DNA from: Planctomycetota bacterium
Lineage (GTDB): Bacteria > Planctomycetota > JAJSAM01 > JAJVHW01
Assembly (NCBI GenBank): GCA_021776825.1
Contig: JAJFFG010000017.1
Coordinates: 1 to 64,000 of the forward strand
Direction of reading: 5' to 3'
DNA: 64,000 bases
Below are positions 49,610 to 63,497 of the stretch, piece after piece. The notes under the pieces were generated by a model. That model was not told the origin of the DNA, ran no database searches, and was given only the letters and a program-made list of their open reading frames with translations. A program made the position numbers and the translations under genes. Position 1 is the first letter of the stretch, and every line of letters begins with the position of its first letter.

Positions 49610-50107
49610 TCAGGAGGCGCGCGTGTAGTCGTAGTGGAACATCATCACCTCGCTGCCGTCGGGCATCGTGGTGTACATCTCGAACGCCCGCTGGTCAGCA
49701 TCGACCCGCGTCTCGACCGTGCGGAAGTCCGTCATCTCGCCGGTGGCCATGCTCGGACCGCGGCAGTGCATCGTGAGCACCTTGCCGGCCTCGTCGTAGC
49801 CGCCCTTCATGATGAACATGTGCGGGCTCATCGAGTCCACCCACGTGCCGATCCACTGGCTCTCATTGGCGTCGTAGCCGACTGTGCAACGACCGACGAA
49901 CGGCTGGCCCATGAAGTCGGCCTCGAACTTGGAGACGCCCCAGAACGGACCGAGCATCTCGACGGTCTCGGTCGCGCTCATCTTCATCGGGTCCGGGCCC
50001 ATGTAGTACGTGCAGTCCACGTCCCATGTGCCGGCGGCCTCGAGGAGCATCTCGTGCTCCGGTGAGGCGGTGGGCATCTGGCAGTCCTGGGTCTGGTCGT
50101 CGGACAT
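49610..50107 (-). CDS. DUF1579 family protein
   Basis: 165 residues. The pattern EHEMLLEAAGTWDVDCTYYM and the central GRCTVGYDANESQWIGTWVD then SMSPHMF match DUF1579, a lipocalin-like beta-barrel family of unknown function. No signal peptide. AGGAGAG precedes the start, so it is SD-led, unlike several neighbours. Confidence 0.85.
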   Translation of the reverse strand: MSDDQTQDCQMPTASPEHEMLLEAAGTWDVDCTYYMGPDPMKMSATETVEMLGPFWGVSKFEADFMGQPFVGRCTVGYDANESQWIGTWVDSMSPHMFIMKGGYDEAGKVLTMHCRGPSMATGEMTDFRTVETRVDADQRAFEMYTTMPDGSEVMMFHYDYTRAS

Positions 50108-50181: not shown

Positions 50182-50841
50182 TCAGTCGCGCCACTCGGCA
50201 TAGACGTCGCGCCACTCGGTCCAGACGACGACGCTCCCACTGGTGGTGACCGCATTCGCCGCTGCCTCGATCCGTGCGTAGCGCGTTCCCCTCCCGCGCC
50301 AGTGCCCGAGCAGTTCGTGGCGCAGCCAGGGAAGCGGATGGGCGGGGCTGATGACGGACATCTCGGTAGCTTCGTCCACGTCGGCGGGCACGACCCACAT
50401 CCCGCTCGGGCCGAACCAGCCCGAGAGCGCGGCGTCGTAGCCCTCGATCCCGTCTCCGCCGCGAGTCGTCGCGACGCGCACCACGTTCGGCCCGGACGTG
50501 GCGATCCACACACGAGCCGGCGCGTCCGGGATGTCGCGGCTCGCGATCGCGAGGACCTCCAGAGCGAGCAGCGCCACGAGGAACGCCCCCTGCAAGACCG
50601 CCGCCACCGTGCGCCCGACGACGAACGAGTGGCGCCGCTCAGCACCGGGGCGCATGGGCGCTGACGTCCGGCGCATGCGCCGCAAGACGGGCGGCCCGAA
50701 CATCACCAGGATCGCCGCGACGAGGAGCACCGGCGCCCACGCGTAGAGGTCGTCCTGCGGTGCCAACATAAGGAACACGAGGTTCACGCCGATCAGCGCC
50801 GCTGCCAGCCGCAGCAGCGCGCGCAACCGAGCCGGCGTCAA
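50182..50841 (-). CDS. Hypothetical membrane protein
   Basis: 219 residues if translation starts at the TTG overlapping the upstream stop (TTGA, 50838-50841). Three hydrophobic helices (about 8-28, 33-50, 74-94) precede a soluble C-terminal domain with GGDGIEGYDAALSGWFGPSG and an aromatic end VVVWTEWRDVYAEWRD. No recognised family. Translationally coupled to the gene at 50838-51464. Confidence 0.6.
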   Translation of the reverse strand: MTPARLRALLRLAAALIGVNLVFLMLAPQDDLYAWAPVLLVAAILVMFGPPVLRRMRRTSAPMRPGAERRHSFVVGRTVAAVLQGAFLVALLALEVLAIASRDIPDAPARVWIATSGPNVVRVATTRGGDGIEGYDAALSGWFGPSGMWVVPADVDEATEMSVISPAHPLPWLRHELLGHWRGRGTRYARIEAAANAVTTSGSVVVWTEWRDVYAEWRD

Positions 50842-51464
50842 CGCGGTTCGTCCGGAGCGAGCCAGGCGTCCGGGCGCTCCGTGTCGTCGAGAGGCGCGCG
50901 GCCCTGCGACTGTTCCGCGTGCAGGTGCTGCACCAGTGCCGCGAGCATGTGCTGGATGACGGATCGTCCAGCGGGGACCAGGGGCGGTGCGGGAGCGCCC
51001 GTGTCGACCGGGAGGATGGCCGCGAACGACGCGTCGCGCATATGGATCACCGCGGTGCCGTCGTCGCACGCCAGAGAAATCACCAGCCTGCGCATGCGCG
51101 CCGGCCTCGTGGGCGCTGGCGGCGTCCCTGCTTGCGGGTTCGGTACGACGACCCATCGGATCGGTGGTGCCTTCCCCACCGAGGGTGTGGAACCTGCCGG
51201 ACTCCAGTCGAACAGGAGCTTCCGCGGCCTCACTCCGTGCTCCGCCGCAATCAGCTCCCGCTCGCGGGGGATGCGCAGGTCGTAGACGCGCGGGTCGCCC
51301 TCCATTCGAATGCAGCAGCGGTCGTTCACTGCCACGAGCCCGATCGCCACGACGCGCTCAGGCCACGCGACGAACGCAATCAGCCAGAGGAACGCGAGAC
51401 CGTGGAGCACCGCGCCGATCAGGCGCAGCGGCGCAACGCGACGGGGCTTCTGCGGCGGACGCAT
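50838..51464 (-). CDS. AWP-type single-pass membrane protein
   Basis: 208 residues, family unknown. The N-terminus RRVAPLRLIGAVLHGLAFLW runs into a membrane segment ending AFVAWPER. A Cys pair, a YDLRIPRER segment and a C-terminal stretch MRDASFAAILPVDTGAPAPP follow. Both ends resemble the small protein at 59720-60166, which has FVAMVAMVAWPER and YRDASISVILGRFAGSVLP. TACGAT lies exactly six bases before the ATG with no SD, so the mRNA is probably leaderless. Confidence 0.65.
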   Translation of the reverse strand: MRPPQKPRRVAPLRLIGAVLHGLAFLWLIAFVAWPERVVAIGLVAVNDRCCIRMEGDPRVYDLRIPRERELIAAEHGVRPRKLLFDWSPAGSTPSVGKAPPIRWVVVPNPQAGTPPAPTRPARMRRLVISLACDDGTAVIHMRDASFAAILPVDTGAPAPPLVPAGRSVIQHMLAALVQHLHAEQSQGRAPLDDTERPDAWLAPDEPR

Positions 51465-51470
51465 GCGCCC

Positions 51471-51476
51471 ATCGTA
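51471..51476 (-). promoter_or_regulatory. -10 box of a probable leaderless promoter (TACGAT)
   Basis: TACGAT followed by six bases and the ATG at 51464; transcription would start at or next to the A of the ATG. Confidence 0.65.
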
Positions 51477-51542
51477 CCCACTCCGTTGACTCCCCCGCCG
51501 CGGGAGGTCACCCTCGCTCCCAGGGAACACCCGGAGGTCCAG

Positions 51543-52580
51543 ATGCACCCAGTCCTGCGCGCCGCAACCGCGGCCATCGTCGTCCTCGCCGCCGCTGCGC
51601 CAGCGCTCGCTCTCGAGCTCGGCGACGAGGCGCCCGAGCTCGAGGTCACCAAGTGGATCCACGGCGAGGCGGTCACGCTGGCCGACAACCCTGACAAGCG
51701 CATCCGGGTGCTGCAGTTCTGGAACACCGTCGACCGCAACTGCATCGAGACCGTGAAGACCCTGAACGAGCTGCAGGATGAGCTCGGCGAGAAGGGCCTC
51801 GACATCATCGGCATCACCACGCAGGGACCGACGTCGGTCGGTGACTTCGTGAAGGACAACGAGGTGAAGTACCGCCTCGCCGTCGATGAGTACGACAACA
51901 CCAACGCCGTCTACATGAAGGGCATCCGCAAGCTGCCGTACGCGTTCGTCGTCGCACCGGATGGTCGCATCGCGTGGCAGGGTGATCCCCGCACCGGGAT
52001 GAAGCGCGTCATCGAGAAGATCATCGGTGGCACCTACGACCTGGAAGCGGCCGTGAAGCTCCAGGGTCTCGAGAAGGCGCTCGGCCAGGCGCTGCGTCCG
52101 CCGATGGATCTCGACAAGTGGGCCAAGGCAGCCGACGACCTCCTCGCCGTGGACGCGGGTCACGAGAACGCGCTGAACATCCGCATCGCCGTGTTCCAGC
52201 GCAACGACGATCCCGACGCCTACAAGACGTGGGTCGCCGCCCACATCGCCAAGATCCAGGACGACGCCGACACGCTGAACAACCTCGCGTGGCGTCTCAT
52301 CACCAACGGCAATCGCGACTGGTGCGATCCAGCGGCGTCGCACGCGGCGGCCAAGCGCGCCGTCGAGGTCTCGAAGGGCGAGGAGGCCGACCACGTCGAC
52401 ACCTATGCCCGTGTGCTGTTCGAGATCGGGATGCTCAAGGAGGCGGTCGCGGAGCAGAAGAAGGCGGTGAAGATCGACGAGGAGTCGAAGTCGCTCAAGC
52501 GGACGCTGCGTCACTACGAAGCGTGTTTGAAGCTGCGCGACGAACTGGCGAATTCGGGCGGGAAGAAGAAGCGCCGCTAA
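51543..52580 (+). CDS. Secreted thioredoxin-fold/TPR protein without CxxC
   Basis: 345 residues; a perfect GGAGG lies five bases before the ATG. A signal peptide ends at about residue 24. A TlpA/redoxin-like domain fills about 26-165 (FWNTVDRNCIETVKTLNELQ). The position of the nucleophilic Cys in WCxxC is Asp64, and only the second Cys (C67) remains. The cis-Pro region is RKLPYAFVVAPDGRIAWQG. The C-terminal half (185-330) is TPR-like. It therefore cannot act as a dithiol oxidoreductase and may bind or sense instead. Ends KKKRR. Confidence 0.8.
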   Translation: MHPVLRAATAAIVVLAAAAPALALELGDEAPELEVTKWIHGEAVTLADNPDKRIRVLQFWNTVDRNCIETVKTLNELQDELGEKGLDIIGITTQGPTSVGDFVKDNEVKYRLAVDEYDNTNAVYMKGIRKLPYAFVVAPDGRIAWQGDPRTGMKRVIEKIIGGTYDLEAAVKLQGLEKALGQALRPPMDLDKWAKAADDLLAVDAGHENALNIRIAVFQRNDDPDAYKTWVAAHIAKIQDDADTLNNLAWRLITNGNRDWCDPAASHAAAKRAVEVSKGEEADHVDTYARVLFEIGMLKEAVAEQKKAVKIDEESKSLKRTLRHYEACLKLRDELANSGGKKKRR

Positions 52581-52590
52581 GCCGGATCAC

Positions 52591-53160
52591 TCAAGAGAGC
52601 GACGCCACGGCGACAACGCGGCCGGCGATCTCGATCGACGCGACACCGTCCTTCGCGACGGCGATCGGTGCAGGGCGAAACGCGCCGATCAGTCGACACG
52701 AGTCCGCGCCGGTGACCGGGATGCGGACGCGCGTCACCACGGCGTCGCCCTGCGGAGGATCGGTGGTCTCGTGCACCTCGATCAACGCACCGGCGCCCGG
52801 ACGTGCGAGCCACGCGGTGCGACCCGCCGCGAGCGTGCGAACTGTCGCCGGGTGCAAGAGCCAGCCGGTTCCTGCGATGCGCGCCAGGAACGCGTCGATA
52901 TCCGGCACGTCGAGCGCGACGTGATGGAGTCCCGGTCCCCGTCGAGCCAGGGCGCGCGCATACGGCCCGGAGTCGCCGAGCGGCTGCATCAGGAGCAGCC
53001 GAGCGCGCTGCCCTTCTTCGCCGACGTAGACCTCGCGCGTGCCCTCGCCGGGGAAGTCCTGCACCGATCCGACGGGATGACCGAACGCGACGGCAGCAAC
53101 GCAGGCGGCATCGACGTCGCGGACGAGGAGCGCGACGTGATCGAGGACGGGATCGGACAT
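52591..53160 (-). CDS. VOC-superfamily protein, methylmalonyl-CoA epimerase-like
   Basis: 189 residues with two beta-alpha-beta-beta-beta modules. LDHVALLVRDVDAA and GLHHVALDVPDIDA supply two metal-binding His; a Glu follows in GALIEVHE. RARLLLMQPLGDSGPYARAL matches the epimerase pattern LLxPLGxxSP. A 50-residue C-terminal extension is unusual. TACCGT lies six bases before the ATG, so it is probably leaderless. Confidence 0.75.
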   Translation of the reverse strand: MSDPVLDHVALLVRDVDAACVAAVAFGHPVGSVQDFPGEGTREVYVGEEGQRARLLLMQPLGDSGPYARALARRGPGLHHVALDVPDIDAFLARIAGTGWLLHPATVRTLAAGRTAWLARPGAGALIEVHETTDPPQGDAVVTRVRIPVTGADSCRLIGAFRPAPIAVAKDGVASIEIAGRVVAVASLS

Positions 53161-53166
53161 GGCGTC

Positions 53167-53172
53167 ACGGTA
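53167..53172 (-). promoter_or_regulatory. -10 box of a probable leaderless promoter (TACCGT)
   Basis: TACCGT, six bases, then the VOC gene ATG. It abuts the stop codon of the preceding gene (53173-53175). Confidence 0.55.
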
Positions 53173-53637
53173 CTACCGCAACGCACCGTTCCCGAAGAGC
53201 GCGTCGTAGCGGCGCCACGTCCCGCCATCGGCGTCGCGCGTCTCGTCGGTCTGGATGTACACCTGCCACTCGTCATCGCGGTCGAAGCCCAACTGCTGGA
53301 TAAGCTGCCACACCAACGATTGGCGACGCTCCCCATGGATGCCGTTGAACGGCACGCCGTTCGACGTACCCGTGGTCCTGAACCAGCGTCCTGAGAGCGG
53401 TGAGGCGTTCTCCGGCGTTCCCCGGACTTCTTCGGCCTTCCACCGCGGGGGCCCCGTGAGCGGCGGCGCGACGTCGACGACCCAGATCGTCGTCGGCCAC
53501 GACAGCGCCGCACCGGGTCGCGAGAGCGCCACGCCCGCAATCGTCGCGAGCAGCAGAACGAGCCCGACGAGCCACACCGTGCGCTGGATGCGTCGCGACC
53601 GCGTTGCGCGCTCCCGGATCAACCGCCCAGCCGTCAT
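53173..53637 (-). CDS. Hypothetical single-pass membrane protein with WRRYD end
   Basis: 154 residues, start chosen at the ATG at 53637 because TACGCT lies six bases upstream. A basic N-terminus precedes one membrane helix (TVWLVGLVLLLATIAGVAL). The C-terminus includes WQVYIQTDETRDADGGTWRR then YDALFG. The TWRRYD motif recurs in the protein at 62006-62395, so the two may be distant relatives. Function unknown. Lies between the Ada-like and VOC genes, 12-22 bases from each. Confidence 0.6.
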   Translation of the reverse strand: MTAGRLIRERATRSRRIQRTVWLVGLVLLLATIAGVALSRPGAALSWPTTIWVVDVAPPLTGPPRWKAEEVRGTPENASPLSGRWFRTTGTSNGVPFNGIHGERRQSLVWQLIQQLGFDRDDEWQVYIQTDETRDADGGTWRRYDALFGNGALR

Positions 53638-53643
53638 GCATCC

Positions 53644-53649
53644 AGCGTA
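53644..53649 (-). promoter_or_regulatory. -10 box of a probable leaderless promoter (TACGCT)
   Basis: TACGCT, six bases, then the ATG at 53637; it lies just after the stop of the upstream Ada-like gene. Confidence 0.6.
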
Positions 53650-53659
53650 GCGGCTCGCC

Positions 53660-54505
53660 CTACGCACGCCCGACCTCCAGCGCCAGCAGAGCGCGCTTAC
53701 GGTCGGTGCCCCACCGGTACCCGCCAAGTGCCCCATCGGAACGCAGCACTCGGTGGCAGGGGATCAGGACGGCGAGCGCGTTCCGTGCGACGGCCGAGCC
53801 GACCGCCCGATGGGCCCGGGGGCGATCCAGTCGTCGCGCCAAGTCGCCGTAGCTGACGGCCGTACCCGCCGGGATGCGCAGCAGCGCGCGCCAGACCTGC
53901 ACCTGGAAGTTCGTCCCGCGGACGAGGCAGCGTAGTTCGCCCCGCTGCCGGTCGTCGGGGGAGAAGATCGAACGCGCGAGGTCGCCGGCGCCGGCGAAGT
54001 CAGCGAGCAGATCGGCAGCCGGCCAGTCGCTGGCCAGACGACCCTCCGCGGCCTCCCCGTCATCGTCGAGCAACTCGACACGGCAGACGCCGCGCGACGT
54101 CCAAGCGACGAAGCACGCGCCGAGTGGCGACGCGGCGATGCCATGCTTCACGGTCACACCCGCGCCGCCCGTCCGCACCTCGCCCGGGGTCAACGCCTCC
54201 AGCGTCACCAGGTGATCGTGCAGCCGCCCCGGCCCGGAGAGTCCGCTGCCGAACGCCGCGTCGAGCACCGTCGCCGAGTCGCGCAGCAGGTCCTTCGCGT
54301 GCTCGCTCGTCAGGTGTTGCAGGAAGCGTTTCGGCGAGAGCCCGACGCAGCGCTGGAACACGCGCTGGAAGTGCGTCGGAGAGAGATCCACCCACGCCGC
54401 GGCCTCGGCCAGCGCGGGTTGCTCATCGGCCCGTTGCGACAGGTAGCGGATGCCCTCGGCAGCGCGCTCTAGATCTGCACTTCTTGGCGCCGTGGACGTC
54501 GTCAT
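53660..54505 (-). CDS. AraC-type/O6-methylguanine-DNA methyltransferase fusion
   Basis: 281 residues. Residues 1-110 form an AraC-type helix-turn-helix domain (TTHFQRVFQR-like SPTHFQRVFQRCVGLSPKRF). Residues about 115-280 are an Ogt/MGMT domain with the alkyl-acceptor Cys250 in IPCHRV and the arginine-finger region AHRAVGSAVARN. The zinc-binding N-terminal domain of Ada, which senses methyl-phosphotriesters, is missing, so adaptive induction of the E. coli kind is unlikely. TACGCT lies six bases before the ATG (leaderless). Confidence 0.93.
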   Translation of the reverse strand: MTTSTAPRSADLERAAEGIRYLSQRADEQPALAEAAAWVDLSPTHFQRVFQRCVGLSPKRFLQHLTSEHAKDLLRDSATVLDAAFGSGLSGPGRLHDHLVTLEALTPGEVRTGGAGVTVKHGIAASPLGACFVAWTSRGVCRVELLDDDGEAAEGRLASDWPAADLLADFAGAGDLARSIFSPDDRQRGELRCLVRGTNFQVQVWRALLRIPAGTAVSYGDLARRLDRPRAHRAVGSAVARNALAVLIPCHRVLRSDGALGGYRWGTDRKRALLALEVGRA

Positions 54506-54511
54506 GGCAGG

Positions 54512-54517
54512 AGCGTA
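54512..54517 (-). promoter_or_regulatory. -10 box of a probable leaderless promoter (TACGCT)
   Basis: TACGCT, six bases, then the ATG at 54505 of the AraC-MGMT gene. Confidence 0.6.
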
Positions 54518-54563
54518 GGCGCGGCGAGGGGGCGCCGCGACCCGGATCTTGCGACCGGCGCCG

Positions 54564-55115
54564 TCAGACCAAGAGGAACCCGAGGAAGAGGAGTCCGCCG
54601 AGAGCCGCGTCGATGGCGCCGACCGTGATTCCGACCGCGGCCTTCCAGCCCGCACCGCGAGCCATCTTGACGCTCGCTCGGACGATGCCCGCCGGGGCAT
54701 CCTCGACGTCGGGCCCGCGGCCGACCCGGTGCAGCGTCCAGAGTCCCAGGATCCCAAGTAGGCAGGAGAGCAAGCCGGCCGCGAGGAGAACCGCCGCGAT
54801 GACCCCGGGCAGCGCGACACACTGCAACACGATGCACGCAGGGATTGCCACGGTCGCCAGGTACATGGAGCTCGCGCACCGTCTGGCCCCGCGTGCGCGA
54901 TCGTGCGCGTCGTCCTTGTCAGGATCAACGCCGCGCGGCGACTCGCGGCGACCGCGGGCGTCGCGTCCTCGCTTCAACTTCGCCGGTCGCGGGGTTCGCT
55001 CGTCGTCTGGCGCCGCTGCGTTGGCCTCACACGCGTCGCAGAGCCGCGCGTCTGCGTCACTGACTGCCAGCGGCAGAGCCTCCCCGCAACCGGTGCACGA
55101 GTTGGAGTCCGCCAT
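54564..55115 (-). CDS. Zinc-ribbon membrane protein
   Basis: 183 residues from the ATG at 55115, preceded by GGAGGGTGACG. An N-terminal zinc ribbon (CTGCG, then CDAC) and a charged linker are followed by about three hydrophobic helices (MYLATVAIPACIVLQCVALP; AAVLLAAGLLSCLLGILGLW; C-terminal ALGGLLFLGFLLV). The layout matches DUF4190-like proteins, function unknown. SD-led. Divergent from the large TPR gene. Confidence 0.7.
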   Translation of the reverse strand: MADSNSCTGCGEALPLAVSDADARLCDACEANAAAPDDERTPRPAKLKRGRDARGRRESPRGVDPDKDDAHDRARGARRCASSMYLATVAIPACIVLQCVALPGVIAAVLLAAGLLSCLLGILGLWTLHRVGRGPDVEDAPAGIVRASVKMARGAGWKAAVGITVGAIDAALGGLLFLGFLLV

Positions 55116-55355
55116 CGTCACCCTCCGCTGGAACGGGACGATCGTAGCGACCGTCGTCCGCCGGCGCTGCTCTGCCGTGCCATGCCCGGCCCTGGAGTGG
55201 AGTGGCGACGCACCCTCCCGCACCGCAGCCGCAGGATCCGCGACCACGTCATCAACGTGTGAGATCGCACACACCTCCCCGGCAGTTCGCAGCACGGCAC
55301 GGGCACCGCTCCCGGCCGCCCGCTACGCTGGCTCGCGAATCCCGGAGTGAACACG

Positions 55356-58283
55356 ATGACGCGTCAACGGATGAGCGAGGGCGAGACCCTGGAGATGCGG
55401 TTCCCGGAGCTGGACTTCAGAAGGACCTCTCCTGGGCTGTTCCGCCTGAACGGATGTGGGCTCGGCCTGTACTTCTCGAAGGACCGCGACCGCGAGACGG
55501 GCACGTACGTGAAGTCCCACTGCGCATGCGTGCTCTGGATTCCGATCTTCCCGATCGCTGAGTACCGCGTGGCCGATGCGGACGGCGGCGGGTGGTACAT
55601 CGTCGGCCGCAATCCGCTGAACGGCCTGCATCGTGCCGTCCGCGGCATCGCGCTCGCAGCCGTCGCTCTGGTGGTCGCCGGGATCGCGTTCAGCATGTAC
55701 ACGTCCAGTGACAGCTACCAGGATGCGAAGGCACTCGACCGTGGCACCGAGCTGGTGGACCGGGGCGACTTGGACGACGCAGCACGCACGTACCGGCGCC
55801 TCGCCAAGCGCGGAGGCGACGTGGCCGTGTCGGCGCGAGAGGAGCTCACCGCGTTGGTTGCGAAGGTCGGCCCGGACACCGATGTGGAGATGGCGCGCAT
55901 CGTCTTCGAGTCCGCCCATACGCCCGGCGACGGTCTTGGCCCCGTCGTGCCGAGCGTCTGGAGCAACGCCGTCGCGTGGGTCGGCAAGAACGACGCACTT
56001 CGCACCCGCGAGGCTCTCGATGCCCTCGAGTTGTTCAGCAGCGTCGCAGAGGACGAGGCGGCGGTCTCCACGGCACAGCGAGACCTTCTCGAACGCATCG
56101 TGAGTTCGCGTCCGACCGACATCGACGCGGCCTCGGAGCTCGCGGTGCTGCTGGAGTCCGGCGAGGAGTTGGCTCGGGCGGTGAGCATCCTGGAGCCGCA
56201 CGCGCTCCGGCTCGGGGCCCGTGAGGGTGCGCGCGTTCTCGGACAGGCCTACGCGGCGATGGGGCGCTTCGAGGACGCACTCCCGCTGCTGCAGGGATAC
56301 ACCAACGCGCGGCTCGCGACGCTCTCGAAGGAGGGCCCCGCGTTCGAGGAGGCCATCGCGAGGGCGCAGAAGCGCGCGTTCGCGCACCTCGATCGCGGCA
56401 ACGCCAAGGCCGCCTGGTACCAGGCGTACGACCGCGCGTCCGAGGCGGAGCAGCAGGAGATGATCGCCGCGCAGGTGTCGAAGCTGCTCGAGGACGACGA
56501 TCAGTTTGTCGCGGCGCGCACGCGGTACGTGGAAGCATCCGCCGTCGTGCCCGTCGCGATGGATCTCGGCATCGTCCGGATGCAGCGAGCGCATGGGATG
56601 ACCGACGAGTTCGCCGCGCGACGCGAGATGGAGGCGGCGGAGCAGACGTTCAGCGCGATCCACGGGGCGGCGCAGGGCGACCCGGACTTCCTCCTCGCCA
56701 GTGCTCGAGTCGCATTCTGGCTCGGCAAGCGCGACCAGTGCCGTGCCCTTCTCGACGAGGTGCTCGTCGTCGGCGGAGAGGCGTTCGACGTGCGGTACGC
56801 GGTCGGCGGGGTCCTCCGCGCGCTCGGAGAATCTCGTGCCGCGTTGGAGACCTGGGAGGCGGCCTACTCCGTAGCGACGTCGGACGAAGAGAAGCAGGAG
56901 GTGGCGAGTTCCATCGGTGCGATCCTCGGCGATCCGCACGAGGCCTCGAAGTGGTTCCAGCGATCCGATCCCGACGATCCCCTTGTGCGCGCCCTCCATG
57001 CCGACTGCCGCGCGCGCCTCGCGATGCTCGCCGGAGACCTGGTCGCGGCGCGCCGCGAGTTCACTGCGTGCATCGAGGCATACGATCGCCTTCCCCGCAG
57101 CGCGGTCACGCTGCACAACAGCGGCGTCGCCGCGTACTCGTTGGTGAGCATCACGGGCGAAGTCGCACTGCTCGACGATGCCGTCAAGCGCCTGCGGGCC
57201 GGGCTGGCGGAGATGCCGACCGACGTGTCCGTGATGACCAATACGGCCCGAGCACTTGCCACATCCGCGTGGTCACACGCGCTCGCGGGCGACATCGATC
57301 TCCGCACCGGTCTCCGCACGTTGATCTCGCTCTCCTACGATAATGCCGAGCAACGTGGGTCGTTGCGCGCGAGTGTCCGCGAGAGTGCCGAGATGCAGGA
57401 GGCGACACAGATCCTCGAACGCGCGCTCGCGCTCGGCGCCCGAGGGGTTCCCGTGATCACGTTGCGCGCGGAGATCGCCAACGACTTCGACGACGTGGCG
57501 CGACTACGCGCCCTGCTTGCACGCGTGATCGACGGCGGAGTGGAACTGGCCAACGCCGAAGACGCCCACGCGGCGGCGCGGGCGGCGGCCGCCGACACGA
57601 CGTCGCTCGGGAAGCTCATCGCAGAGTCGGAGCGTTCTCTCGCAGAGAGTCGAGCGGAGAAGGGCTCACCGACGCGGGTTGCGCTGCGACTGACGATGCT
57701 CCAATTGCAGAGGGCTGCCGTCAGTCAGGGGATCGATGGCGACCTGAACACGGTGGATCAGCTGGCGCAGGCCCTCTACCGGGAGCATCCGTCCTCGTCG
57801 ACTCGCGCCACGGTGTCACGCACCGCCGGACTGCAACTCCACACGGCGCTCCTCGCGTCGAACGAGCGATACGCCAGCGAGTGGAAGCGATGCTCGGTTC
57901 ACGTCGACGTGACCGGGTTCCTCGCGGAGGCGCTGCACCGAGACGAGGCGCTGCGGTCCAAGGCGGTGACGACGCCTGAGTTCCAACGACTCCTCGGCCT
58001 GTACGACGAGTCGGCACGCAGGTTTCCGCGATCGGAGAGCCCCCGACGCTGGGCGATCACGCGGTTTGGGACCAGCGAACAAGCTGCGCGAGCGCTCGCC
58101 TCGGTCCGCGCCAACGAGACAGGCCCGCTCTCTACACAGATCCATCACCACTGCGCCCCACACCAACTCTCGGCGGCGCTGGCAGAGGCCTGGCGCCGTC
58201 GCGTGTCCGGAGACGAGTCGGGGGCCGACGCCGTCCTCGATGGCTGCGCCGCCCTCGGAGCACCGATCCCGTACCGCGAGTAG
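55356..58283 (+). CDS. Large TPR membrane protein
   Basis: 975 residues. The ATG at 55356 has GGAG at suitable distance; a GTG at 55347 is in frame. An N-terminal beta domain (FRLNGCGLGLYFSKDRDRET; HCACVLWIPIFPIAEYRV) precedes one membrane helix (IALAAVALVVAGIAFSMYTS, about 90-110). I have seen this N-terminal pattern in other large bacterial membrane proteins. The rest is a helical-repeat solenoid with many degenerate TPRs. TACGCT at 55324-55329 may be its -10, giving a short leader. Probably a scaffold; partners unknown. Confidence 0.8.
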   Translation: MTRQRMSEGETLEMRFPELDFRRTSPGLFRLNGCGLGLYFSKDRDRETGTYVKSHCACVLWIPIFPIAEYRVADADGGGWYIVGRNPLNGLHRAVRGIALAAVALVVAGIAFSMYTSSDSYQDAKALDRGTELVDRGDLDDAARTYRRLAKRGGDVAVSAREELTALVAKVGPDTDVEMARIVFESAHTPGDGLGPVVPSVWSNAVAWVGKNDALRTREALDALELFSSVAEDEAAVSTAQRDLLERIVSSRPTDIDAASELAVLLESGEELARAVSILEPHALRLGAREGARVLGQAYAAMGRFEDALPLLQGYTNARLATLSKEGPAFEEAIARAQKRAFAHLDRGNAKAAWYQAYDRASEAEQQEMIAAQVSKLLEDDDQFVAARTRYVEASAVVPVAMDLGIVRMQRAHGMTDEFAARREMEAAEQTFSAIHGAAQGDPDFLLASARVAFWLGKRDQCRALLDEVLVVGGEAFDVRYAVGGVLRALGESRAALETWEAAYSVATSDEEKQEVASSIGAILGDPHEASKWFQRSDPDDPLVRALHADCRARLAMLAGDLVAARREFTACIEAYDRLPRSAVTLHNSGVAAYSLVSITGEVALLDDAVKRLRAGLAEMPTDVSVMTNTARALATSAWSHALAGDIDLRTGLRTLISLSYDNAEQRGSLRASVRESAEMQEATQILERALALGARGVPVITLRAEIANDFDDVARLRALLARVIDGGVELANAEDAHAAARAAAADTTSLGKLIAESERSLAESRAEKGSPTRVALRLTMLQLQRAAVSQGIDGDLNTVDQLAQALYREHPSSSTRATVSRTAGLQLHTALLASNERYASEWKRCSVHVDVTGFLAEALHRDEALRSKAVTTPEFQRLLGLYDESARRFPRSESPRRWAITRFGTSEQAARALASVRANETGPLSTQIHHHCAPHQLSAALAEAWRRRVSGDESGADAVLDGCAALGAPIPYRE

Positions 58284-58467
58284 ATCGAACGCCCGCAAGC
58301 GCGCGGCCGGATCCAGCCGACCGGATCCACGCCATCGGGCCGCGGGATCATCACCCCCGAACGGCGATGAGCCAACGCAGCGCTGGCCCGGATCATCCGC
58401 GTGGGCGGCGCGAGATCGGGTGCCGGACCCCGCGAGGCGCGGCGCCCTCAGGAACGATGCGGGGTAG

Positions 58468-58473
58468 TACGCT
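58468..58473 (+). promoter_or_regulatory. -10 box of a probable leaderless promoter (TACGCT)
   Basis: TACGCT, six bases, then the ATG at 58480. Confidence 0.65.
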
Positions 58474-58479
58474 GGAGAC

Positions 58480-58884
58480 ATGCACCGGGTTGTCCGATGG
58501 GGCTCGCGCCTCCTCGCTGTGGCGCTCCTCATCGGCGCCGTGACGTGGCTCCGGATGGCGTCCACCCCGCCGGAGGTGCTCTGGCTGCGCGACGGAGGGG
58601 GTGGGCCGTCGAGCTGGCTCGTGAGCTACTCACCGAGTCTCGACACTCCGTGCATCTGGAAGATTCGCGGAGCGGGCCACGCTGGACCCAGTGGAGCTGC
58701 GCGGGATCGGGCGGTCCGACTGGTGGAAGATGCCGGCTGGATCGGCGCCTTCCGCGAGGCCATCGGGCAAACGCCAGGGGACGGCATCGCGCGTGGGTAC
58801 AGCGAGACGGGCACGACCGCCGTCGTCGAAGGAACCGTGTGGTTCGAGCTGAAGCGCGATCTCAGGTGGGAGGACGGCTGGTGA
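58480..58884 (+). CDS. Hypothetical single-pass membrane protein
   Basis: 134 residues. The N-terminal helix (LLAVALLIGAVTWLRMA) is a membrane anchor or uncleaved signal. The soluble part has SSWLVSYSPSLDTPCIWKI and ends VWFELKRDLRWEDGW. No family recognised. Preceded by a 196-base spacer after the TPR gene, with its own leaderless-type promoter. The 213 bases that follow, up to the next gene, contain fragments of open frame but no supported gene. Confidence 0.6.
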   Translation: MHRVVRWGSRLLAVALLIGAVTWLRMASTPPEVLWLRDGGGGPSSWLVSYSPSLDTPCIWKIRGAGHAGPSGAARDRAVRLVEDAGWIGAFREAIGQTPGDGIARGYSETGTTAVVEGTVWFELKRDLRWEDGW

Positions 58885-59085
58885 GCGTCGCAGCCCCCTG
58901 ATCGGCGGATGGCAGCGAGCCGTCGGCCCGCACTGCGACTCAGCTCTGCTGGACGTTCGAGGGACGGGTGATCGTGCGGCGATCGTCGGGCCGGTCGCTC
59001 TCGGGCTAGTCGGCGGGTACTTCGAGTTCGTGGACGTCGCTCTCCGACTCGTCTCGGCCCTGACCGACGGCCCGGCCTCGCCCGG

Positions 59086-59091
59086 TACGAT
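59086..59091 (+). promoter_or_regulatory. -10 box of module copy 1 (TACGAT)
   Basis: TACGAT, six bases, then the ATG at 59098. The block 59069-59100 is repeated at 60949-60980 with two mismatches, so the promoter was duplicated with the genes. Confidence 0.7.
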
Positions 59092-59097
59092 GAGCGG

Positions 59098-59340
59098 ATG
59101 ACCGCGGACCAGGTCCCGCCGCCGAGGAAGCCGAGAGGGGCGCGCGTGCTCGTGCCGGCGTTGGCGATCCTCGGGGGGCTCGTCCTCGTCGCCGCACCGC
59201 AGCGGCCTCGCTTCTCGCCAACCAGGCTGGCTGCGGCGGGCCCGGTGGTTCACTTGAAGGAGCGCTGGGACGCGAAGCCCGGCTGGCGGGCGGCAGTCGT
59301 CGCGAGGAGGGCGCTCCTGAGAGTGCCGAGCAGGAGGTGA
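59098..59340 (+). CDS. Small membrane protein A1 (module copy 1)
   Basis: 80 residues. VPPPRKPRGARVLVPALAIL leads into a single membrane helix (GGLVLVAAP). The C-terminal half is basic and divergent. The first 25 codons match A2 at 60978. Its stop overlaps the start of B1 (GTGA). No known family; real because of the paired copy, the conserved promoter and the tight overlap. Confidence 0.6.
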   Translation: MTADQVPPPRKPRGARVLVPALAILGGLVLVAAPQRPRFSPTRLAAAGPVVHLKERWDAKPGWRAAVVARRALLRVPSRR

Positions 59341-59735
59341 TCCCCCGCCGCCCCGCTCGCTGGTCCTGGAGCGTCCTCGGGGGCGTCGTGCGCGGCGTGG
59401 GCTACGCGCTGGTCGTCGTCGTCGCCACCGCGGCGATTGCGTGGCCGGTGCGACTACGTTCCATCGCGATGCGATACCCGAACGCTCCCCTCCCCGAGCC
59501 AGACTGGCTAGCGCGACACCGTGTGACCAGCCCGCTGTGGAACTCGATCGACATTGACGAGAATCGCGTGCTCGAGTCCGGACTCCCCACAACCGACGAC
59601 GTGTTCAAGCGGCTGAACGTGCCAGCGTCACGGTGCTTCTTCGTAGAGGGGCCACGGCGACCGGGACCGCCTCCGCCGTACGACTTCAGCGATCGCGAGT
59701 ACGTCGTGTGGCGGCAGTCGTGGCTGACCGAGTAG
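59337..59735 (+). CDS. Small AWP-type membrane protein B1 (module copy 1)
   Basis: 132 residues from a GTG. RRPARWSWSVLGGVVRG precedes a helix ending AAIAWPVR; the outer part contains SPLWNSIDIDENRVLESGLP and ends YVVWRQSWLTE. The N-terminal 17 codons are nearly identical to B2 at 61223. Overlaps A1 by four bases and C1 by 16. Function unknown. Confidence 0.62.
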   Translation: MIPRRPARWSWSVLGGVVRGVGYALVVVVATAAIAWPVRLRSIAMRYPNAPLPEPDWLARHRVTSPLWNSIDIDENRVLESGLPTTDDVFKRLNVPASRCFFVEGPRRPGPPPPYDFSDREYVVWRQSWLTE

Positions 59736-60166
59736 CCCCCCGTCGCCCCCGTCGCTGGAGCTGGGCCGTCCTACGAGCGGCCGTCCTCGGCCTCGGGTTC
59801 GTCGCGATGGTGGCGATGGTGGCTTGGCCGGAGAGGCACACCCTCCTCAGGTTCTTCCCCGGGGGCGGGAGTTCAGTTCAGTGCCACGTCCAGACCATGT
59901 CAGGCGAATGGCAGGAGATCGACGCCCGCTGCCACTTTCGGCCCAACGCCGCGACGCTCCGCTTCTCGGGCCCCGATGCGCCACGCCTGCTGATCTCGCC
60001 AGACCCTCGGGCTGGTGAGCTGCACGCCTACCGAGACGCCTCAATCTCCGTCATCCTCGGACGTTTCGCCGGTTCCGTTCTCCCCGCCACCGTCGCTCCG
60101 GCCGGCGCCGGCTTCATCGCCGCCGTCGAACCGGCCGTCCCCGCCTCCGCCGTGCTGGCCCTCTGA
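59720..60166 (+). CDS. Small AWP-type membrane protein C1 (module copy 1)
   Basis: 148 residues from a GTG inside the end of B1. RRPRRWSWAVLRAAVLGLGF leads to a helix ending VAMVAWPER. The outer part has a Cys pair (SVQCHVQ, DARCHF) and YRDASISVILGRFAGSVLP, which resembles the protein at 50838-51464. The last 126 bases overlap the convergent lipoprotein gene at 60041-60571. Confidence 0.6.
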   Translation: MADRVAPRRPRRWSWAVLRAAVLGLGFVAMVAMVAWPERHTLLRFFPGGGSSVQCHVQTMSGEWQEIDARCHFRPNAATLRFSGPDAPRLLISPDPRAGELHAYRDASISVILGRFAGSVLPATVAPAGAGFIAAVEPAVPASAVLAL

Positions 60167-60571
60167 CCTCAAGGTCTCCGCCATCGCACGTAGCGACATC
60201 CAGCCCCGCTGGCTGGCGTCGGCGTCTTCGTGCGCAGCGCGCCCTGCCCCTCCTTCGTTGCCACCACGCGATGCGACCCCACGTCCGTCACCTGCCTCGT
60301 CGCCGCCATCGCGATCATTCCCGTGCGAGGTTCCCTCGCCAGGCGAGATGGCCGCCGTCTGAGTCCCGAAGACACCGTCGAACCACTTCGGGATGTCGAG
60401 GACGTGCTTCGTGGTGCCGCCGTCGCCTGTCTCCTGACCGGCCGTCCGAGTGCTGGCCCCGATCTGGGTGGCTCGTCCGTCAACCCCTCCACCCTGCCCA
60501 GCGCAGCTCGTCGTGCCGAGCGTCGTCAGTCCAAGTGCCACAACACCAAGCGTGATGATGCGTGTCGTCAT
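60041..60571 (-). CDS. Gly/Asp-rich lipoprotein
   Basis: 176 residues from the ATG at 60571, with GGGAGG just upstream. Signal peptide with Cys23 in GTTSCAG. Only HVLDIPKWFDGVFGTQT and GWMSLRAMAETLRSEGQ look ordered; the rest is Gly/Asp/Glu-rich. Function unknown. The low-complexity tail is antisense to the end of C1, so the true extent of one of the two is uncertain. Confidence 0.55.
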   Translation of the reverse strand: MTTRIITLGVVALGLTTLGTTSCAGQGGGVDGRATQIGASTRTAGQETGDGGTTKHVLDIPKWFDGVFGTQTAAISPGEGTSHGNDRDGGDEAGDGRGVASRGGNEGGAGRAAHEDADASQRGWMSLRAMAETLRSEGQHGGGGDGRFDGGDEAGAGRSDGGGENGTGETSEDDGD

Positions 60572-60651
60572 TCGTACCTCCCGCGCAAACGATACGGGGA
60601 GTCGAGTCCTGCGGCGTCGTAGCGCCGAACGCTGGCCGCGACCTCGCCCAG

Positions 60652-60657
60652 TACGAT
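60652..60657 (+). promoter_or_regulatory. -10 box of a probable leaderless promoter (TACGAT)
   Basis: TACGAT, six bases, then the GTG at 60664. Confidence 0.6.
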
Positions 60658-60663
60658 GTCTCG

Positions 60664-60936
60664 GTGTCGCCTGGCAGCATCCACGACCCACAGAAGCCGG
60701 CGACGACAGATGGCGAGCGGGTCGCATCGGTGTTCTTCGGCCTGAGCGCCTCGCTCGTGGGCGCCCTCATGGTCCTGCTGGGCATCGTCGGAGCCGTCGG
60801 CGGTTCCCGTACTGCACTCGCCCACCACGGCAACCTGGAGCTCGGCGACCTGGGGGGACTCGCGTTCTGCCTCGGGCTCACGCTCGCGGGTGGCCTTGCG
60901 TGTGCGATCGGAGCCCGGCTCATCGCGAGACGCTAG
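60664..60936 (+). CDS. Small two-helix membrane protein
   Basis: 90 residues from a GTG placed by the TACGAT-N6 promoter. Two hydrophobic helices (VFFGLSASLVGALMVLLGIV; GLAFCLGLTLAGGLACAIGA) joined by a short loop. No recognised family. Lies divergently from the lipoprotein gene and directly upstream of module copy 2. Confidence 0.55.
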   Translation: MSPGSIHDPQKPATTDGERVASVFFGLSASLVGALMVLLGIVGAVGGSRTALAHHGNLELGDLGGLAFCLGLTLAGGLACAIGARLIARR

Positions 60937-60965
60937 TCGAGTGCAGATGGCCCGGCCTCGCCCCG

Positions 60966-60971
60966 TAGGAT
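60966..60971 (+). promoter_or_regulatory. -10 box of module copy 2 (TAGGAT)
   Basis: TAGGAT, six bases, then the ATG at 60978; a duplicate of the element at 59086-59091 with one change in the hexamer. Confidence 0.65.
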
Positions 60972-60977
60972 GAGCGG

Positions 60978-61214
60978 ATGGACGACGCCCGCGTCCCGCC
61001 GCCGAGGAAGCCGAGGGGCGCGCGCGTTCTCGTTCCAGCCTTGGCTTTGGTGGGCGGGTTCTGCCTCACGGCCTTCCCCGCTAGCCCCCGGTACGACCCG
61101 TGGGGGCAGTATCACGACAGCATCATTGTCTCCGACACCCTGACCGGGCGCTGCTGATACGTGTTCGACGACGGTCGACCGCCAGAGGACTGGTTGACGC
61201 GCGGCGACTACTAG
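60978..61214 (+). pseudogene. Small membrane protein A2 (module copy 2), interrupted by TGA
   Basis: The start MDDARVPPPRKPRGARVLVP matches A1. Translation meets an in-frame TGA at 61155-61157 after 59 codons. Beyond it the same frame stays open to a TAG at 61212 (YVFDDGRPPEDWLTRGDY), which would give 78 residues, close to A1's 80. This suggests a recent nonsense mutation. A real 59-residue product, or a sequencing error, is possible. Confidence 0.5.
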
Positions 61215-61222
61215 GTCCGACC

Positions 61223-61483
61223 GTGAACCCCCGCCGCCCCGCCCGCTGGTCCTGGAGCGTCCTCGGGGGAGTCGTCCGCGGCGTGCTGTTCGTGTGGGTG
61301 GTCGCGCTCGTGGCGTGGCCAGTCGAGCCGTGGGGCTGGTGGTACCCGTGCGACGAGGTGGATCATGGGGCACAGGCACCTCCAGCGCCTTCCAAGTGCA
61401 AGTGCGTTCCGTCGCTCCGGGGTGTAGCGAGCTGGCGATCCTGGCCCTGCCGCCTCATCGACGGCCGCCGGTACGGCTGGTAG
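61223..61483 (+). CDS. Small AWP-type membrane protein B2 (module copy 2)
   Basis: 86 residues from a GTG. RRPARWSWSVLGGVVRGVLF and a helix ending ALVAWPVE are near-identical to B1 at the N-terminus. The outer part is different and Cys-rich (four to five Cys, including SKCKCVP). Nine bases after the A2 frame ends. Confidence 0.55.
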   Translation: MNPRRPARWSWSVLGGVVRGVLFVWVVALVAWPVEPWGWWYPCDEVDHGAQAPPAPSKCKCVPSLRGVASWRSWPCRLIDGRRYGW

Positions 61484-61489
61484 TACGGC

Positions 61490-61908
61490 GTGCCGACCGC
61501 CCCCCGCCGCCCCGTCGCTGGAGCTGGGCCGTCCTCCGCGCCGCCGCCCTCGGCCTCGGGATCGTCGCGATGGTGGGGTGGCCAGTCAGGGCCACGTGCG
61601 ACCTCAGGGAGTTCTCTGGCGGACTTGGCGTTCGGCTCGGTCCCGCTCCGACCATCGACTGCGACTGGTGGAATGCGGGACCTGGAGGGTGCGAGGACGC
61701 CGTGAACTGTGTTGCGTCGATCCCGTGGGCGCTTATCGCCGCGCGTACGGGAGAGGCCATGGACGACGACGGGGCGCCGCGGAAGCACCGGCTCAGGGCC
61801 ACTGTGGACGCCTGTGAGCGCTCCATCTCTGGCTACGAAGGTGCCAGCCGGCGACGAGCTCGTGGGGACCCGCTCGAGTGGCTCGTGGGGTCCCCCGCCG
61901 GAGGTTGA
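61490..61908 (+). pseudogene. Small AWP-type membrane protein C2 (module copy 2), frameshifted
   Basis: The sequence RRWSWAVLRAAALGLGIVAM then VGWPVR matches C1, but the matching GTG start at 61490 is in another frame. Between start and WSW motif C1 has five C in a run and C2 has four (near 61510-61513). Restoring one C joins the frames. The downstream frame then stays open to 61908 with a Cys-containing outer domain unlike C1. Either a frameshifted gene or a homopolymer sequencing error. Confidence 0.5.
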
Positions 61909-61993
61909 GGGCGGGGTCTCCGGTGCGAGATCAAAGGCGTGAACACCCTGCAGGTCATCGGTCCCCCGCGCGAGACGCTCAGCCGCTCGGCGC

Positions 61994-61999
61994 TATGAT
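61994..61999 (+). promoter_or_regulatory. -10 box of a probable leaderless promoter (TATGAT)
   Basis: TATGAT, six bases, then the ATG at 62006; the closest to the TATAAT consensus in this set. Confidence 0.65.
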
Positions 62000-62005
62000 C
62001 GCCGC

Positions 62006-62395
62006 ATGACGCGCATCCGCACCGTCGCTGTTGCCCTCGCGATGGTCGTCGCAGCGGCGGTGGCTCTTGGTCTCTTGGGTGCCGCGCCGACAGCTGCCCC
62101 GGCGTCCGTCTGGGGCGTCGGAGCGACCGTCCCCGGGGAGCCGTGGCTCTGGATGCCGACGGAGTACCGGCTTGGCCCTGCTCGAACCGAGCCGAACCTC
62201 GAGGACCTCGGGTGGACTGAGAGGCTCCTCGAGAACAACGACCTCCTTCGGCTCGGTCGTTCCACGACCCGGCTAGACGACCTACGACGTCTCCTGCGCC
62301 TCAGGTCTCGGTCGTACGGCGACTACCATCTCTCTGACGGACTCGTCGAGGACGGCGACCTGACTTGGCGGCGATACGATCTCGACGAGTACTAG
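62006..62395 (+). CDS. Hypothetical exported protein with WRRYD end
   Basis: 129 residues. N-terminal signal or anchor (VAVALAMVVAAAVALGLLGA). A Leu/Arg-rich middle (RLLENNDLLRLGRSTTRLDD) precedes a C-terminus ending LTWRRYDLDEY. The TWRRYD motif is shared with 53173-53637. Function unknown. Its end overlaps the convergent gene by four bases. Confidence 0.6.
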   Translation: MTRIRTVAVALAMVVAAAVALGLLGAAPTAAPASVWGVGATVPGEPWLWMPTEYRLGPARTEPNLEDLGWTERLLENNDLLRLGRSTTRLDDLRRLLRLRSRSYGDYHLSDGLVEDGDLTWRRYDLDEY

Positions 62396-63132
62396 CTCGG
62401 AGATGGCTCGCTCCCCCCCGAGGCGCGCACTCGCGTGACGTCCACACCGAGCAGCCCTCCGGCCTCGGCGAGTATTGCCCGGTACGCGCTCGGCACGATC
62501 TTGCATGCGAGCATCGCCTGGCTGTGGCTGAGCACGGCGTCGGTGTCGCGGTGACGGGCGAGCGTGGAGTAACTCCAGTGCGGGCCACCCGACAGCGCCG
62601 GATACACGTCGTAGCTCCCCTCTCCCCCAACGGCCTCCGCGATCTGTCGCCGATCGGGGAGGAACTTCACGTCGCTGTCGATGACCGTGGCGAGCGCGTC
62701 GGCCTCGTCCTCCGGGAGTGCGATGCCCGCCGCTGCGACACCCTTGAGGAACTGCCGCACCGCGTTCTTCTCCACGCGAGCCAGTCGAGCATCTGGGTCT
62801 TGGGCCACCCAGCCGATGAGAAACGCGCCCTCCCAGAGCTGCCGCGCGAGAAGGATGTTCGCTGCGACATGGATCTTTCGATCGGGAGCCGGCGGGTCCG
62901 GCGGGGCCAGCAGCGCCAAGAACGCATCCACGACTTCATCGGCCTCGCACCACGCGAGGAGCGCGAACACCGGCACGCCAGCATCGGCACGTCGAGGGCG
63001 TAACTCTCGAGAGAGAGCGCGCAGCGCCAGCGTGTCGGACTCCGCTCGCGCCAGTGCGATTGTGTCCGAGGCTGTGAAAATGGCGCGCTGCTCGGCCGCC
63101 GGGGCGGGATCTCCGGGTGCGGTCTGGCTCAT
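62392..63132 (-). CDS. Hypothetical cytoplasmic protein, possibly DUF5677-like
   Basis: 246 residues, largely helical, without signal or membrane helix. HVAANILLARQLWEGAFLIG, then WVAQDPDARLARVEKNAV, and GPHWSYSTLARHRD resemble DUF5677-type proteins, but I am not sure. TAGCCT lies six bases before the ATG (leaderless type), and an inverted repeat lies just upstream. Confidence 0.6.
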   Translation of the reverse strand: MSQTAPGDPAPAAEQRAIFTASDTIALARAESDTLALRALSRELRPRRADAGVPVFALLAWCEADEVVDAFLALLAPPDPPAPDRKIHVAANILLARQLWEGAFLIGWVAQDPDARLARVEKNAVRQFLKGVAAAGIALPEDEADALATVIDSDVKFLPDRRQIAEAVGGEGSYDVYPALSGGPHWSYSTLARHRDTDAVLSHSQAMLACKIVPSAYRAILAEAGGLLGVDVTRVRASGGSEPSPS

Positions 63133-63138
63133 GCCTGC

Positions 63139-63144
63139 AGGCTA
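63139..63144 (-). promoter_or_regulatory. -10 box of a probable leaderless promoter (TAGCCT)
   Basis: TAGCCT, six bases, then the ATG at 63132. Confidence 0.5.
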
Positions 63145-63288: not shown

Positions 63289-63374
63289 TGGTGGGCGGTG
63301 CTGGATTTGAACCAGCGAAGGCGTACGCCGCCAGATTTACAGTCTGGTCCCATTGACCACTCGGGCAACCGCCC
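63289..63374 (-). tRNA. trnY: tRNA-Tyr (GUA)
   Basis: Acceptor GGGCGGT/ACCGCCC, anticodon stem CCAGA/TCTGG with loop CTGTAAA (anticodon GTA). Long variable arm and T-arm CTGGTTCAAATCCAG. Discriminator A with an encoded CCA (63289-63291). Corresponds to E. coli tyrU. Confidence 0.96.
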
Positions 63375-63425
63375 ACCGTTGATGTCGCACACCCCCCGGA
63401 GGGGGTCTCGGAGCGCGGCCGGCGG

Positions 63426-63497
<72 letters not shown>

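Follow-up and report, generated by a model that had tools for sequence, protein, structure and literature searches.

Do ten genes clustered within 11.7 kb of a Planctomycetota genome, each with the hexamer TANNNT ahead of its start codon, give rise to leaderless mRNAs, and is the hexamer their promoter -10 element? The genes lie in a window of 64,000 nucleotides (positions 1-64000 of contig C42) in a draft genome of 6.88 Mb and 133 contigs (G000). The GC content of the window is 67.2%, compared with 69.0% for a 1.6 Mb sample of the same genome (~23% of the total, with 904 called genes), which serves as the test sample for what follows. Genes were called with a custom codon-model caller that makes no use of upstream signals. 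The spacing d is the number of bases between TANNNT and the start codon, so that d=6 places the box at -12..-7. The 16S rRNA of G000 bears a canonical anti-Shine-Dalgarno sequence; Shine-Dalgarno (SD)-directed translation is therefore available, and both modes of initiation are possible.

All ten boxes that the first-pass annotation had described are present at -12..-7 of an ATG or GTG. On the minus strand, TACGAT (51471-51476; feature 51462..51476) lies 6 nt ahead of the ATG at 51464 of gene 50838-51464, whose 208-aa product resembles at its N-terminus the RWSW small membrane protein family discussed below; TACCGT (53167-53172; 53158..53172) precedes ATG 53160 of gene 52591-53160, which encodes a glyoxalase-superfamily protein (Pfam); TACGCT precedes ATG 53637 of gene 53173-53637 (box 53644-53649; 53635..53649; 154 aa, without Pfam match) and also ATG 54505 of gene 53660-54505 (box 54512-54517; 54503..54517), in which Pfam finds an AraC-type HTH and an O6-methylguanine-DNA methyltransferase (MGMT); and TAGCCT (63139-63144; 63130..63144) precedes ATG 63132 of gene 62392-63132 (246 aa, without Pfam match). 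On the plus strand, TACGCT (58468..58482) precedes ATG 58480 of gene 58480-58884 (134 aa); TACGAT precedes both ATG 59098 of gene 59098-59340 (59086..59100; 80 aa, the first gene of a duplicated cassette) and GTG 60664 of gene 60664-60936 (60652..60666; 90 aa); TAGGAT (60966..60980) precedes ATG 60978 of gene 60978-61157 (59 aa, opening the second cassette copy); and TATGAT (61994..62008) precedes ATG 62006 of gene 62006-62395 (129 aa, without Pfam match). Under a codon model trained on G000, each of the ten ORFs scores higher in its own frame than in any of the other five, the score being weak for 59098, 60978 and 62006; some of the ten are short. A Pfam scan of nine of them (all but the 59-aa ORF 60978) matched two and left seven without a match. 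The ten starts lack an SD, as had been noted: the AGGA that an SD regular expression flags at 60978 was rejected since it sits within the TAGGAT box itself. Upstream GGAG or GGAGG is likewise confirmed for the neighboring genes named as SD-led (49610-50107, 51543, 55115, 60571).

The scan of genome starts that had been proposed as a check, run on 23% of the genome, yields a sharp peak at d=6, so the lack of enrichment that had been named as refuting the idea is not what the genome shows. TANNNT occupies this position at 4.87% of the 904 called starts and at 0.02% of internal in-frame ATG/GTG codons, a ~240-fold difference; the earlier estimate of one chance occurrence in 200 starts was thus conservative. 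(Over all ATG/GTG triplets the frequency is 0.17%, a count in which the real sites are included.) At d=7, 8 and 9 the frequencies are 2.2%, 1.0% and 1.4% (~4.7% combined); they are 0-0.7% at each other spacing between 0 and 30, and 0% at d=5. The enrichment recurs in a caller-free count of boxes that lead into an ORF of 55 codons or more (107 at d=6 versus 12 at d=5 in the 1.6 Mb sample) and in whole-genome counts of TANNNT-Nd-ATG (354 at d=6, 55 at d=5 and 58 at d=3). The shifted spacings 5 and 3 served as control in place of a reversed pattern because reversal alters codon content. Genes with d=7 usually have C at the nominal +1, followed directly by the start-codon purine, a pattern that favors a transcription start on the start codon. 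With start-calling error allowed for, 126 of 904 genes (14%) have a start at d=6-9; false positives, estimated from the internal-start rate at roughly 1-3%, reduce this to 11-13%. The leaderless share would accordingly be put at roughly 11-14% of genes, or about one in eight. These are not simply short genes, a notion rejected because the share is 13-17% for length classes spanning 150 to 700 aa. A genome of the same family (G025) has the box at d=6 in 4.4% and at d=7 in 2.8% of 181 genes.

The presence of the box goes with the loss of the SD and with position in the transcription unit. SD-like sequences are found ahead of 3% of the genes with d=6 versus 48% of the remaining genes, and the SD genes, among those that are first-gene-like, carry the box mostly further out, at d=26-35; between d=10 and d=17 it is rare in first-gene-like genes of both the SD and the non-SD class. 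The box would seem either to abut the start codon or to leave space for an SD leader, as a -10 element would. The share of genes with the box is 23.3% among divergent genes versus 4.3% among genes that follow a same-strand neighbor by less than 30 nt; box-abutted starts occur preferentially at first or single genes and are rare within operons. A search upstream of the boxes found no -35 consensus above shuffles.

The AraC-MGMT gene allows the box to be located relative to something other than its start codon. An operator-like motif, AAGATCCGGGT, lies at 54540..54550 on the minus strand; its first base is 33 nt upstream of the first base of the 54505 box. Variants of this motif (AAGAATCGGGT / AAGATCCGGGT) recur at a fixed 32-34 nt from the AraC-MGMT box in many phyla (loci L097-L176, inspected upstream), TANNNT being found at that distance in 30 of 41 motif-bearing MGMT loci, again from many phyla. 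In 17 of these 30 loci the first long-ORF start is at d=6-8 and in 10 at d=26-34; the other three comprise two artefactual upstream TTG/GTG codons and one start at d=48. The distance between motif and box is constant while the start moves; the box is therefore keyed to the operator and not to the start codon. Judged by this geometry, the MGMT box is a promoter -10 element, and the gene, judged by its box-to-start spacing, has a leader in certain lineages and none in others. Relative to the inferred transcription start, the motif is predicted to span about -45 to -35. It is presumably bound by the encoded AraC domain, and an activator at this site could take the place of a -35 element.

Box, spacing and start are also retained between G000 and G025 in genes whose flanks appear unrelated. 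Among 60 reciprocal-best pairs (median identity 48%), four of the seven leaderless G000 genes are leaderless in G025, versus five of the 53 others (Fisher P=0.007, for a small ortholog sample). SD loss, the preference for divergent and first genes, the reciprocal position of the box in SD genes, ortholog conservation and an operator-to-box distance that is independent of the start all argue for the leaderless reading offered by the first-pass annotation: TANNNT is very probably a -10 element that, when placed six (to nine) bases ahead of the start codon, generates a leaderless mRNA translated without an SD, in a genome where such genes are mixed with SD genes. Wherever the box abuts the start codon, RNA polymerase would start on its A or G or no more than a few bases away, and the leaderless mRNA would be translated without an SD, presumably by 30S subunits loaded with initiator tRNA or by 70S ribosomes; this architecture would coexist with that of the many other genes that have a leader and an SD. 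Within this scheme we infer exactly where transcription starts, which sigma factor acts and which ribosomal route is taken.

That TANNNT might instead be a translational signal, recognized by the ribosome or by protein S1 on leadered mRNA, is suggested by its occupying the position of the SD and replacing it, and Nakagawa et al. 2017 (PMC5397173) did not exclude that S1 causes upstream biases. However, the MGMT box holds its distance to the operator motif though the start shifts by at least 20 bases, and on this ground a translational role is rejected; SD genes also have the box, further upstream, and it is scarce at closely spaced same-strand genes, so that a translational signal must be regarded as very unlikely. 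The possibility that chance and duplication suffice, one accidental TANNNT having been copied along with duplicated ORFs, has in its favor that 59098, 60664 and 60978 have a common promoter sequence, which they share with copies on contig C12. At least seven of the ten starts are nevertheless without a shared promoter, and the excess over internal starts, like that of d=6 over d=5, refutes this explanation for the genome as a whole, leaving it a negligible probability.

The -10 reading of the box is not itself at issue in a further alternative, according to which the boxes are real -10 elements and most of the protein comes from longer transcripts started upstream, with leaderless translation a minor contribution. 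Several promoters per gene are common in bacteria, and 60664 and 60978 do lie close behind other genes. Against this, the SD frequency of only 3% in these genes means that a leadered transcript would be without the usual ribosome site, and the alternative is unlikely to be correct.

The ten starts had been described as a block. The 51-63 kb region is indeed a true density outlier, the densest patch in the 1.6 Mb sample (10 sites in 11.7 kb versus a mean of ~0.8); what does not stand is its separateness, since it is only the densest patch of a feature that is scattered throughout the genome, with duplication contributing. The ten starts are not ten independent events, because duplication generated shared promoters and cassettes; the genome-wide enrichment is independent of them. 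In the cassette, small membrane genes of the PRRPxRWSW type come after a PPPRKPRGARVLVP-type gene. Two copies lie in the window and more on contigs C111 and C12; in the copies from all three places the first cassette gene keeps TA[CG]GAT-N6-ATG. Gene 60664-60936 has a paralogue with the same promoter on C12, and the 59-aa gene 60978-61157 is shorter than its C111 paralogue. The small membrane-protein family (PPPRKPRGARVLVP and PRRPxRWSW..VAWP) is expanded in tandem cassettes, diverges strongly in its C-terminal parts and is without a Pfam match. Its members are at 59098-60180 and 60978-61900 in the window, at ~18.4-19.6 kb of C111 and ~33 kb of C12, with related RWSW genes at ~10 kb of C62 and one relative in G025 (its contig C6, ~2.5 kb). 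The RWSW reading frame near 61490 is apparently shifted relative to its paralogue.

Several other features of the patch and its surroundings can be recorded. tRNA genes are a usual insertion place, and those for tRNA-Tyr and tRNA-Thr (63289-63497) directly adjoin the patch; no GC island signature was seen at the patch. TANNNT-N6-start sites reach their second highest density in the 1.6 Mb sample at ~16-40 kb of contig C51, where the genes are apparently unrelated. The segment 58407-58467, directly adjoining the TACGCT box of gene 58480, is the remnant of an interspersed, MITE-like repeat, the full form of which is ~241 bp long with similar inverted ends (CTAGCCCG..GTTCACGAGG; e.g., C51:100101-100341) and has ~25-30 matches in the 1.6 Mb sample, almost all of them intergenic and some at contig ends. 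The repeat was rejected as a mobile promoter donor, there being no box at that end in the seven other copies whose flanks were inspected. The predicted RNA folding of 58395-58475 is not more stable than that of shuffled sequences.

A survey of 99 Planctomycetota genomes from 56 families, in which excess is defined as a d=6 count at least twice that of the larger shifted control with P<1e-6, finds a strong d=6 excess in 23 genomes and 13 families, G000 being the strongest, and about half of the 99 genomes without a d=6 excess. The d=6 ratio drops steeply with background (Spearman -0.90), so that the test is weak in AT-rich genomes and absence cannot be claimed for them; G014 and G075 have a fairly low background, yet almost no d=6 excess. 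Three genomes of family f4 (G002, G032 and G087) present another profile, with d=5 versus d=3 counts of 239/73, 223/51 and 307/101 and d=6 nearly as high, possibly reflecting a different box-to-start distance or an effect of composition. As a tentative generalization, for which the odds are somewhat unfavorable, several high-GC and mostly uncultured Planctomycetota lineages may use leaderless and SD genes side by side, a system that others in the phylum may have lost or in which AT-richness may hide it, and the AraC-MGMT gene may lack a leader in many phyla, its regulator sitting at the -35 position, so that induced repair could use SD-free translation in alkylation stress. The spacing-resolved evidence points to widespread leaderless genes in Planctomycetota lineages that are known mainly from metagenome assemblies. 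Gene starts in such genomes are correctable by the -10 box as well as by the SD motif, and AraC-MGMT provides a clean comparative case, with one promoter architecture that is leaderless or leadered by lineage.

Leaderless TANNNT genes are established in other bacterial phyla and little documented in Planctomycetota. Mycobacterium tuberculosis reportedly has TANNNT promoters and many leaderless mRNAs. Its leaderless transcriptome was mapped experimentally by transcription start site sequencing (PMC3898074), whereas that of G000 is deduced from sequence. For one planctomycete, a non-SD bias upstream of starts has been described that would fit leaderless mRNA and/or S1 (Nakagawa et al. 2017, PMC5397173); that analysis concerns a single species and gives no spacing-resolved motif, whereas the present one shows the spacing lock, the gene context and the distribution over 99 genomes. 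A literature search on leaderless planctomycetes or Planctomycetota and on planctomycete dRNA-seq, with most subscription papers and the GeneMarkS-2 paper outside its scope, yielded no mapped or spacing-resolved study. In Deinococcus-Thermus the ORF-adjacent box has been shown experimentally to be the promoter -10 region, with specific spacing requirements (PMC12340547). The same box lies at the same spacing, a few bp before the ORF, in G000, in further support of the -10 reading; G000 differs in phylum, in its lower share of such genes and in that its evidence comes from sequence. PMC12340547 also includes a scan of species across the bacterial domain (supplementary figure), which may cover Planctomycetota. 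TA-led leaderless genes have been reported in Actinobacteria, Deinococcus-Thermus, Acidobacteria and others (Zheng et al. 2011, PMC3160421), Planctomycetes being absent from the text and phylum table of that paper. The genes of G000 resemble those in having TANNNT ~12 bp upstream, high GC and no SD, and in being mixed with SD genes; their share is near that of Acidobacteria (13.3%) and below those of Actinobacteria (19.2%) and Deinococcus-Thermus (39.4%).
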